Virus record (IMG/VR): IMGVR_UViG_3300034284_000127
Span: 1-53,652 of that record
Length of the DNA: 53,652 bases
Direction: 5' to 3' (one strand)
From: a virus
Each line of letters begins with the position of its first letter. The stretch's first letter is position 1. The notes under the pieces are model-generated. The model was not told where the DNA came from and searched no databases. It saw nothing but the letters and a program-made list of their open reading frames with translations. Below, in pieces: positions 47,695-50,895 of this stretch. The position numbers and the translations under genes are program-made.

Positions 47695-48378
47695 ATGGAT
47701 TTAAAAGAATACTGGCTAAACAACAACGGCAAAAAGATTACAAAGTGGACTCATTACTTTTGGGTATATGACCGACACTTTGCGGCACTACGAGATAAAC
47801 CAATTAAGATGTTGGAGATTGGTGTATTGAATGGTGGTTCATTGGAAATGTGGAAGAAATACTTCCATCCTGATAGTACAATCGTAGGTATTGATATTAC
47901 ACCTAGTTGTAAAGACTTTGAAGATGCTGAGAATAATGTTCATGTCCGCATCGGTGACCAATCTGATCCAGAATTCTTACAAAGCCTTGTAGATGAATTT
48001 GGTGAGTTTGATTTGGTTTTGGATGATGGCAGTCACCATGTTGACCATGTGAACAAAACATTCCAGTCCTTGTATCCAAAGATTGCTAAAGATGGTGTTT
48101 ACTTCATTGAAGATACACATGCGGCATATTGGAATTCTCATGGAGGTTCTATTGACCATCCAGATTCAATCAACAATGTGGCCAAGACCATGATTGATAA
48201 GTTGAATGCAGACCACACCAAAGGTCAAATTGCACCAGATTTCTTCACACATGAAACAAAGTGCATGTCGTGTTATGATAGTATTGTGGTGTTTGAGCGT
48301 GGTAATGTGGGTGCTAAAATTCCACAAGAGTATGGTGGACCAAAATCTGATGAGGTTTTGATTATCAGAACTCACTAA
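47695..48378 (+). CDS. SAM-dependent methyltransferase (class I, sugar O-methyltransferase-like)
   Basis: The 227 residues contain MLEIGVLNGGSLEMWKKYF (motif I), IVGIDITPSC with Asp at the end of strand 2, and FDLVLDDGSHHVDHV followed by VYFIEDTHAAYW, as in the cephalosporin-hydroxylase/MycE-like O-methyltransferases, where DDGSHH binds metal. It probably methylates a sugar hydroxyl in this cassette. No good ribosome-binding site; starts one base after the previous stop. Confidence 0.75.
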   Translation: MDLKEYWLNNNGKKITKWTHYFWVYDRHFAALRDKPIKMLEIGVLNGGSLEMWKKYFHPDSTIVGIDITPSCKDFEDAENNVHVRIGDQSDPEFLQSLVDEFGEFDLVLDDGSHHVDHVNKTFQSLYPKIAKDGVYFIEDTHAAYWNSHGGSIDHPDSINNVAKTMIDKLNADHTKGQIAPDFFTHETKCMSCYDSIVVFERGNVGAKIPQEYGGPKSDEVLIIRTH

Positions 48379-48418
48379 ATACTAAATAAGACATTAACAA
48401 CTGCTGCAGAGGCGGGAC

Positions 48419-50605
48419 ATGAAATTTAGAGAATTTATTACTGAGAATAAAGAGAAACATGCGGTCATGGCGTTTGGCCGTATGAATCCACCTACAACCG
48501 GACATGAAGTCTTGGTCAATAAGGTTAAATCGGTTGCAAAACAAGTTGGTGGTTCCCATCACATCATTCTGTCTCATTCACAAGATGCCGCTAAGAATCC
48601 TCTTACTGCGGCACAAAAAGTAAAACATGCCAAAAGGTTCTTTCCAGATACAAACATATCTGTTGCAACCAAAGAAGAACCAAACTTCCTAACACAAGCA
48701 GCCAAGTTACACAAACAAGGTGTAACACATCTACACATGGTCGCAGGCGCTGACCGTACCGCAGAGTACCACAAACTGTTGCACAAATACAACGGGACAC
48801 ATGAAGGTGCTCTTTTCAACTTCAAAAAGATAACTGTACATAACGCAGGTGAACGTGACCCTGATGCTGAAGGTACAGAAGGCATGTCCGCTTCAAAGAT
48901 GCGTAAACATGCAGGCTCTGGTAATTTTGATGACTTTAAACAAGGCATTCCAAAACATGTGCCAGAACACCATGCGAAAGAATTATTCCGTGATGTTCGT
49001 AAAGGCATGAGCATTAAAGAGTCTATTGACCTTAACGAAGAATTTGAAATTCTTTTGGAAGGCGTACACGACCAATCCATCTTCAAAGCTATCTTCTTAG
49101 CAGGTGGTCCTGGTTCTGGTAAAGATTATGTGTTAGACAATACACTTGATGGTCAAGGTTTAACAGAAATTAATTCAGACAAGGCACTTGAGTTCTTAAT
49201 GGACAAAGAAGGTCTTGATAAGATGATGCCTGTTGGCGAAACAGAGAAACGTGACTTTGTTCGTGGTCGTGCAAAGAACATTACAGAGTTGCGTCAACAA
49301 CTTGCACTATTAGGTCGCAATGGTTTGATTATCAATGGTACAGGTGATGATGTAGCTAAAACAAAACGCATCAAAGACCAATTAGAAAAACTTGGTTACG
49401 ATACTGCCATGTTGTTGGTGAATACAAGAGATGATATCTCCGCTCAAAGAAATATTGAACGTGGCCAACGTGGTGGTCGTGCGGTACCAGAACCAATTCG
49501 TAAAGAAAAGTGGGATAGTGTACAGTTAGCACGTACTGAATATGCTCAAATGTTTGGTGATAAGTATAAAGAATTTGATAACTCTGAAGACTTGAGGCAA
49601 GCTGATCCTGAAACAGTTAAGGCAAAGAAGTCTGAGCTGTTACAATTATATACAGGTTTTAAAGAATTCGTTTCTACACCACCACAGTCAGAAGAATCTA
49701 AATTTTGGGTTGCTAATGAGTTGGATAAGAAAGACACTTTACCAGTTCAAACTGATGGTGCTGAACAACTGCCTGCGTCTGATGATGCAACTGGTGAAGA
49801 AGCTAGAAAACTCGGTCTACAATACTATGGTTTTGGTAGATATGGCAGAAATGGTAAAGTTACACATCGTTCTGTACATGGTCAATTGGTTTTGGTCAAT
49901 AAAGAAGAACCAAAACAACCAAAGATTCCTGTGAGTAGTTCATCACAGAAACCTGTTAAACCGGTTGTTAAAGAATCATCTGATTTGATATATGAAGATG
50001 GTTTGTTACGAGACAAGGCCGGTAAATTGCGTGTCTTCATGCTTAGAAATACTGCAGCAAAAGAAGCACACACTAAAAATGGAACCATTATTAAACACAA
50101 TAATGGTTATGTTGTTAAACTTAATGGAGAAAATAAAAATGCTAAATTATCTGAAGAAATTATTTCAAACCAAACCAAAAGAACAAGCTCCTTTGGTGAG
50201 TCCAGTTCTGGAAGAAATCGTAGTACCGGTGCCAGTGATAGAACCAACACCGGAACCAGTGCCAGTTCCAGTACAGGAAGTTGTTGTGGAACCAGCACCT
50301 GCACCTGTGACACCAAGCCAACCACCGAAGAAACAACCCGTAGCAAAATCACACTTGCAGAAATCCGCACCCGCCAAAAAGAAAAAGTAATTGAGTCTAT
50401 CAATAATGGTGAATCTGGTCTTTCGATGGCTGCATCTGGTGAGAACCTTGGCCGTGATACAACAAGAATTAAGACACTAAAGAAACCATTAGAAGAACTG
50501 ACTGGCGATGAAACAACCATGAGTATCGGTGACCAAAAAGAAGGCGAACTGAAACGAATTGGTATTAATCTTAAAACATTTAAATCTAAAAAGGTTATAG
50601 GATGA
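48419..50605 (+). CDS. NMNAT-like nucleotidyltransferase fused to a P-loop domain, with capsid-targeting-like N-terminus
   Basis: This 728-residue protein starts MKFREFITENKEKHAVM, an internal-protein-like peptide ending in ITE. Residues 17-200 form a nucleotidylyltransferase: MAFGRMNPPTTGHEVL with TTGH at 26-29 (T/HxGH motif) and GMSASKMRKHA at 155-165 (ISxxxxR-like). Residues 222-400 form a P-loop domain with AIFLAGGPGSGKDYVL (229-236; Asp instead of Ser/Thr after Lys) and LIINGTGDD. This resembles NadR's NMN adenylyltransferase plus kinase order. Residues ~575-630 are a Ser/Thr/Cys tract that overlies a frame in another phase; the end (KITLAEIRTRQKEKVIESI, FKSKKVIG) is family-typical. GCGGGA precedes the ATG. 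Confidence 0.75.
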   Translation: MKFREFITENKEKHAVMAFGRMNPPTTGHEVLVNKVKSVAKQVGGSHHIILSHSQDAAKNPLTAAQKVKHAKRFFPDTNISVATKEEPNFLTQAAKLHKQGVTHLHMVAGADRTAEYHKLLHKYNGTHEGALFNFKKITVHNAGERDPDAEGTEGMSASKMRKHAGSGNFDDFKQGIPKHVPEHHAKELFRDVRKGMSIKESIDLNEEFEILLEGVHDQSIFKAIFLAGGPGSGKDYVLDNTLDGQGLTEINSDKALEFLMDKEGLDKMMPVGETEKRDFVRGRAKNITELRQQLALLGRNGLIINGTGDDVAKTKRIKDQLEKLGYDTAMLLVNTRDDISAQRNIERGQRGGRAVPEPIRKEKWDSVQLARTEYAQMFGDKYKEFDNSEDLRQADPETVKAKKSELLQLYTGFKEFVSTPPQSEESKFWVANELDKKDTLPVQTDGAEQLPASDDATGEEARKLGLQYYGFGRYGRNGKVTHRSVHGQLVLVNKEEPKQPKIPVSSSSQKPVKPVVKESSDLIYEDGLLRDKAGKLRVFMLRNTAAKEAHTKNGTIIKHNNGYVVKLNGENKNAKLSEEIISNQTKRTSSFGESSSGRNRSTGASDRTNTGTSASSSTGSCCGTSTCTCDTKPTTEETTRSKITLAEIRTRQKEKVIESINNGESGLSMAASGENLGRDTTRIKTLKKPLEELTGDETTMSIGDQKEGELKRIGINLKTFKSKKVIG
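50139..50390 (+). CDS. Nested Pro/Val-rich small ORF in a different frame
   Basis: This 83-codon frame lies wholly inside the previous gene, shifted by one base. It starts at ATG with GGAG ten bases upstream and encodes MLNYLKKLFQTKPKEQAP, a PVPV/EPTPEPVPVPVQ-type repeat and a lysine-rich end (QKSAPAKKKK). Codon choice (CCA, GTT, GTA, GTG) is normal for this genome in this frame, while the host frame shows rare ACC/AGC/TGC codons exactly here. This suggests selection on the nested frame. Alternatives are a frameshifted extension or a low-complexity artefact. Confidence 0.5.
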   Translation: MLNYLKKLFQTKPKEQAPLVSPVLEEIVVPVPVIEPTPEPVPVPVQEVVVEPAPAPVTPSQPPKKQPVAKSHLQKSAPAKKKK

Positions 50606-50895
50606 AATCATTTAAAGCATTCATAACAGAAACGCCTGCTTGGACACGTAAAGAGGGCAAGAACCCTGAAGGTGGTTTAAACCGCAAGGGTATTGAATCT
50701 TATCGCCGTGAAAATCCAGGTTCTAAACTATCGATGGCAGTTACAACTAAGCCATCAAAATTGAAGCCTGGTTCTAAGGCCGCAAATCGTAGAAAATCAT
50801 TCTGTGCTCGTATGGGCGGCATGGAAGGCCCAATGAAAAAACCTAATGGTGAACCAACTCGCAAAGCCCTTGCACTCAAAAAATGGAATTGCTAA
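50602..50895 (+). CDS. DUF6321-type small basic protein with targeting-like N-terminus
   Basis: The 97 residues begin MKSFKAFITETPAW and continue with GGLNRKGIESYRRENPGS, LKPGSKAANRRKSFCARM and KPNGEPTRKALALKKWNC, a pattern I associate with DUF6321 proteins of large phages. Very basic, with two Cys in SFCARM and WNC. The ITE at residues 8-10 fits a gp21 cut. Probably a DNA-associated internal virion protein. Overlaps the preceding stop by four bases. Confidence 0.72.
   Translation: MKSFKAFITETPAWTRKEGKNPEGGLNRKGIESYRRENPGSKLSMAVTTKPSKLKPGSKAANRRKSFCARMGGMEGPMKKPNGEPTRKALALKKWNC

Follow-up and report, generated by a model that had tools for sequence, protein, structure and literature searches.

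The question raised by this locus is whether a long phage gene carries a second, separately translated gene in another frame, or whether the second frame is open only as a by-product of the first. The sequence examined was an IMG/VR viral metagenome record of 53,652 bases, which is called the window here. T4-like phage genes in the window, i.e., portal, head protease, scaffold, major head protein, tail tube, DNA polymerase, and helicases, were recognized using PHROGs. The features of the locus were assigned as follows.

48419..50605, + strand: outer gene, 728 aa, nucleotidyltransferase and P-loop kinase (PHROG/Pfam profiles, Foldseek of the AlphaFold2 model)
50139..50390, + strand: nested gene, 83 aa, ATG at 50139 and stop TAA at 50388-50390 (ORF reading and relatives)
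50126..50129, + strand: Shine-Dalgarno (SD)-like GGAG, 9 nt 5' of the nested ATG (read in the sequence)
48375..48388, + strand: two CTAAATA motifs resembling T4-type late promoters, 37 and 44 nt 5' of the outer ATG (motif only)
50602..50895, + strand: next gene, DUF6321 protein, with a capsid-targeting-sequence (CTS)-like N-terminus MKSFKAFITE (ORF and profile matches)

The nested ORF is in phase +1 relative to the outer ORF 48419-50605 and lies wholly within this longer same-strand gene, as embedded genes do. The translation reads MLNYLKKLF...PVPVIEPTPEPVPVPV...KKKK and is laid out as an N-terminal amphipathic helix (residues 2-9), a disordered Pro/Val/Glu-rich middle, and a Lys-rich tail. 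AlphaFold2 predicted the same single helix (residues 2-9) and disorder in the remainder. The frame of the window is open already from 49992 (132 codons), and the start kept by relatives is 50139. The first-pass annotation had described a nested frame at 50139-50390 with its own GGAG and ATG, a Pro/Val-rich stretch, and a KKKK end, and re-reading gave exactly these coordinates and this ORF. The odd outer-frame tract that it had seen over the overlap was found again as a Ser/Thr/Gly/Cys tract with an atypical codon score (-0.021). The "normal codon choice" claimed for the nested frame holds only in part, i.e., the score is above that of this frame in the rest of the outer gene (+0.055 vs -0.18) but under that of typical genes (+0.21). 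Codon usage was also considered as a guide to the older frame and was uninformative; nested and outer frames score alike across 35 relatives.

The outer protein begins with a nucleotidyltransferase domain (phrog_3041, phrog_395) of NMNAT/NadD-like fold, and its second domain is a P-loop kinase, Zeta_toxin/AAA_33 (PF06414, PF13671). After the kinase come a small domain, a disordered linker housing the nested gene, and a C-terminal tail. Foldseek with the AlphaFold2 model recovered adenylate and polynucleotide kinases and NadD/NMNAT enzymes. Residues 571-644 showed pLDDT <50 and were predicted as disordered, and the overlap covers about residues 574-656. With the overlap in this disordered stretch, the host protein would tolerate the nested gene. 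Constrained outer motifs were ITLxEIRxRQKEK in the group of the window and YxFRTYxE..NFxKDKE in a deep group.

With the outer amino acids fixed and synonymous codons drawn at random, the probability that the +1 frame is open over the span was 0.27 for the window alone. At this probability the window alone proves nothing, and the proof is given by relatives. Over 39 divergent representatives the joint open-frame probability was ~10^-44, a figure that is biased since the representatives were picked for having the ORF. The remaining alternative frame was open in 0/39 representatives.

Scans of IMG/VR gave >200 loci with 181 distinct outer genes, of which 161 were complete. The nested +1 ORF was present in 148 of these 161 and amounted to 133 distinct nested proteins, and the family was found in uncultivated lake and sea phages. 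The nested ORFs of relatives have 51-119 aa and a common plan, i.e., Met, helix, Pro/Glu/Thr/Val-rich middle, and Lys/Ser-rich tail. Helix variants include MLNYLKKLF, MLKKILDWLK, MFKKILDWFKK, and MKYIHLIILRLKQF, and a profile built from 38 nested proteins showed the recurrent N-terminal helix and a KSxSxKS-type tail. Amphipathicity of the helix is no more than moderate (mean moment 0.54 vs 0.34 in shuffles; 20/39 below p 0.1). The mean Pro fraction of the middle region is 0.16, and the net charge over the final 25 residues is ~+7.7. An SD word precedes the nested ATG in 153/153 cases, compared with 369/4083 (9%) of the remaining +1 ATGs of these genes, with SD being part of the selection score. 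Length, SD, N-terminal pattern, and Lys/Arg content entered the score by which nested ORFs were picked, which somewhat inflates the frequencies of these features. The nested ATG and stop were kept in relatives together with the architecture, while the outer frame stayed intact. Sequencing error or compensating indels, by which the Pro-rich frame would belong to the outer protein, were ruled out, because the arrangement is common to independent contigs with intact outer frames, down to ~41% outer identity.

Selection was analyzed in both frames. Substitutions per position were counted in 60 disjoint close pairs, a few of them near-duplicate, and two-frame effect classes in 59 pairs. At outer codon positions 1/2/3, the overlap showed 0.083/0.059/0.110 substitutions and the sequence outside 0.062/0.036/0.210. 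Since position 3 is lower in the overlap while positions 1 and 2 are higher, the mutation rate is not simply low there. By class (rates x1000, overlap vs flank), outer-synonymous changes that are nested-nonsynonymous were reduced to half (34.5 vs 68.4), and those making a nested stop occurred at 5.2 vs 65.6, i.e., 2 were seen where ~25 were expected at the flanking rate. Outer-nonsynonymous changes occurred at 25.6 vs 12.3 when nested-synonymous and at 15.0 vs 12.8 when nonsynonymous in both frames. In the overlap, outer-nonsynonymous changes were 1.7-fold commoner where nested-silent, whereas no bias was seen outside (0.96). The overlap is dual coding rather than a mutational cold spot. The synonymous-site check proposed earlier for relatives was passed, the substitution patterns showing constraint in both frames. 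The earlier reading of overprinting is supported by these patterns and by the kept start, stop, and architecture. Its corollary, that the linker frame had been shaped by the nested protein, was half right; the outer frame is constrained too, and the nested gene does not depend on this outer gene.

The last point comes from the same gene in other places. In L203 and L227, the enzyme gene has no nested ORF, and the C-terminal module with the nested +1 ORF is joined to another N-terminal part, ~500 aa long. The nested ORF reads MIITFLKNLL...KKHPLEAP...SPSKKS in these loci.

L203:4723-6723 and L227:4309-6246: fused C-terminal module with embedded gene, RxFMLRxxAAKEAH... to ...GDQKEDELKKKGISL

The deep group (L064, L069, L083) has the same nested architecture as the window, yet around the overlap its outer sequence is unrelated.

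A profile of the nested protein (A3) was used as query over large contigs. It gave one confident match per positive genome; G029 had one additional weak partial match (E 0.04). In the genomes of L076, L244, L247, and L251, the sole confident match was a free-standing gene (E 4e-5 to 9e-8), located between gp23 (major head) and gp19 (tail tube), the neighbors being identified by PHROGs. In these four, the nested ORF is missing from the enzyme gene together with a large part of the overlap segment, but YxFRTYxE and NFxKDKE, the outer motifs on either side, persist. Eleven distinct free-standing homologs were found, with the same start Met as the nested copies. Each of the 11 is preceded by an SD-like word and by TAAATA at 30-40 nt, and most stand behind a terminator-like hairpin. 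Common to nested and free-standing proteins are an N-terminal MxKFIKSFF helix, a Pro-rich middle, and a Lys-rich tail, and an HPLD motif occurs in several members of both sets but not in all. Profile-profile comparison gave a probability of 94.8% over the N-terminal 17 columns. In the reverse search, the free-standing profile recovered 3/18 nested copies, each correctly placed, and it had no match in six named phage records without the gene. Homology of the two sets is thus suggested by the 17-column N-terminus, a motif of partial membership, and position, in a family that is short and of low complexity. Because the family also stands free beside the major capsid gene, the nested product would act in trans, independent of the outer protein.

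Two explanations without a separate gene were weighed. A Ser/Thr-rich outer linker could make the +1 frame automatically Pro/Val-rich and stop-free with no second protein, and the open-frame probability of the window would allow this. The substitution classes in the two frames reject such a composition effect, as the outer-synonymous rate is halved and nested stops are avoided. Moreover, the helix-Pro-Lys plan is the same over unrelated outer sequences, including the other outer gene in L203/L227, and the free-standing homologs have their own promoter-like motif, which leaves the by-product explanation very improbable. Programmed +1 frameshifting would instead give the enzyme an alternative Pro/Lys-rich tail and no separate small protein. 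It would fit the members whose frame is open 5' of the ATG, the window with its 132 codons included, but the frame of many relatives is not open until just 5' of the ATG. The SD and ATG are conserved, and the free-standing homologs begin at exactly the same Met; we give frameshifting hardly any credence. We therefore consider, with high confidence, that the nested ORF is a real, separately initiated, and selected gene, a judgment that does not extend to its function. The outer late transcript would be read from two starts, i.e., the outer start and the internal Shine-Dalgarno/ATG giving the 83-aa protein, and the outer protein would tolerate the overlap through its disordered linker.

Not all relatives carry the nested gene. 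Intact outer genes without it had been named by the first-pass annotation as contrary evidence; such relatives exist, but they form coherent clades, one of them with the free-standing gene. A nested ORF is missing from 13 of the 161 complete outer genes; in two of these cases it lies within another gene, and in one it is a free-standing gene. The sequence read for the other 10, several of them on short contigs or from distant phages, showed no relocated copy. Neither a nested nor a free-standing copy was found in L321 and L322 (G039, G041); loss of the gene or excessive divergence could account for this. Among cultured phages and named records, HTVC008M, DLP6, Melnitz, C48C1, AG-345-L05, and ACG-2014b have the outer homolog and no nested or free-standing copy. 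When the proteins of both sets were compared by tblastn with 50,697 phage records, no match was obtained, with sensitivity limited by low-complexity filtering. PHROG and Pfam gave no significant match for either set, only sub-threshold ones at chance level.

The direction of movement was examined by trees. For the outer nucleotidyltransferase domain, the tree placed the free-standing clade as one group (100/98) within nested-bearing lineages (98/98, 95/94), and the innermost joins were weaker (92/79 and 91/83). The gp23 tree was compatible with a nested ancestor and not decisive. The simplest reading of the trees would be a nested ancestor and one move out, since the opposite would need two entries into the same linker and frame. 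In the common ancestor of these phages, the gene would probably have been embedded in the enzyme linker, one clade then moving it out beside gp23 with its own promoter while the linker shrank, and another having the C-terminal module with the gene fused to an unrelated gene; for this whole history our confidence is evenly balanced. If it is true, the same gene can be traced entering or leaving an overlap.

We infer late timing, and the nested ORF is very likely a late gene. The CTAAATA pair upstream of the outer gene is a candidate late promoter that would serve outer and nested proteins; the motif occurs 9 times in the window against 9.8 expected, i.e., at expectation, and not once on the - strand. 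Clues to function are the late-promoter-like motifs, the gp23/gp19 neighborhood, the basic tail, and the short amphipathic helix. Our best guess from these clues, given about an even chance, is a head-associated basic protein. The N-terminal helix would dock on capsid, scaffold, or inner membrane, and the cationic tail would contact DNA. A small protein for host takeover or anti-defence, placed in cytoplasm or membrane and not in the head, is possible but doubtful. Like many phage accessory proteins, the family is fast-evolving, disordered, and lineage-restricted. Against such a role are the late-type promoter motif and gp23-gp19 position of the free-standing copies, and the gene is near-universal in the clade, unlike an accessory gene.

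A lysis or membrane factor was also considered, like the embedded Pro-rich o-spanin Rz1 in Rz. Rz1 of lambda is a lipoprotein that pairs with the protein whose gene embeds it (PMC6139136). The nested protein is likewise small, Pro-rich, and embedded in the +1 frame, of a kind often missed by gene callers, and its helix is possibly membrane-active. Spanins too occur embedded, overlapped, or separated in different phages with one function (PMC6139136). But the nested protein has no Cys lipobox, as Cys occurs in 3/39 representatives and is absent from the window protein, and almost no stretch of transmembrane grade was found in nested proteins. The outer protein is a soluble nucleotidyltransferase-kinase unrelated to lysis, not a membrane i-spanin. 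Spanin identity was rejected, because lipobox and i-spanin partner are both absent and only the Pro-rich region fits; a lysis factor of any kind is improbable. Unlike Rz1, the family is also found in another outer gene or alone beside gp23. A sliding-clamp-binding peptide at the nested N-terminus, weighed on pattern only, had no support.

A head-associated protein would resemble the T4 internal proteins IPI-III (PMC3012670) in general character, i.e., small, Lys-rich, late, and head-linked, the last two presumed for the nested protein. It differs from them in that a capsid-targeting sequence with a terminal gp21 cleavage site is lacking. In the profile, by eye, the window and most relatives have no suitable Glu after the helix for an [LI]xE site.

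Overprinted phage genes were already known, and spanin genes are known as embedded and separate (PMC6139136, PMC8227390). As in other overprinted viral genes, e.g., of phiX174 (PMC8227390), two proteins share one DNA stretch, both under purifying selection and of unusual composition. Here, in contrast, the outer protein is modular and only its disordered linker is overlapped, the phage genome is large (>150 kb), and one family switches between nested and free-standing sites. Literature searches in open-access full texts on embedded and overlapping genes of phages turned up no description of this family. The unusual feature is that one family is nested in two different outer genes and is also free-standing. 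Escape from or capture into an overlap is usually argued from single cases, whereas these arrangements make the direction and cost of dual coding directly measurable. A group of uncultivated T4-like phages that is frequent among the searched contigs thereby gains an unannotated, probably late protein family. Nearly all retrieved members of the clade keep a gene that is missed wherever gene calling does not allow nesting.

Some further observations were made on the locus. At L061:4556-4879, the same +1 site holds a very different Trp-rich nested ORF (MSIWDYEITWRIVLWWENLQAWFY...) in place of the usual protein, possibly unrelated or strongly diverged. In L211 and L214, another nucleotidyltransferase N-terminus (YGGGFQPFHAGH) is joined to the same C-terminal part, and the nested gene is retained. 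The outer and DUF6321 proteins have MKxFxxF[LI]xE-like starts (48419-48445, 50602-50631, and the outer genes of relatives), which resemble the T4 capsid-targeting sequence with its [LI]xE prohead-protease site. Judging from this start, the outer enzyme may be packaged and injected. Its NMNAT/NadD-like domain and P-loop kinase (48419-50605) form a NadR-like combination, and its role could be NAD salvage or counter-defence.
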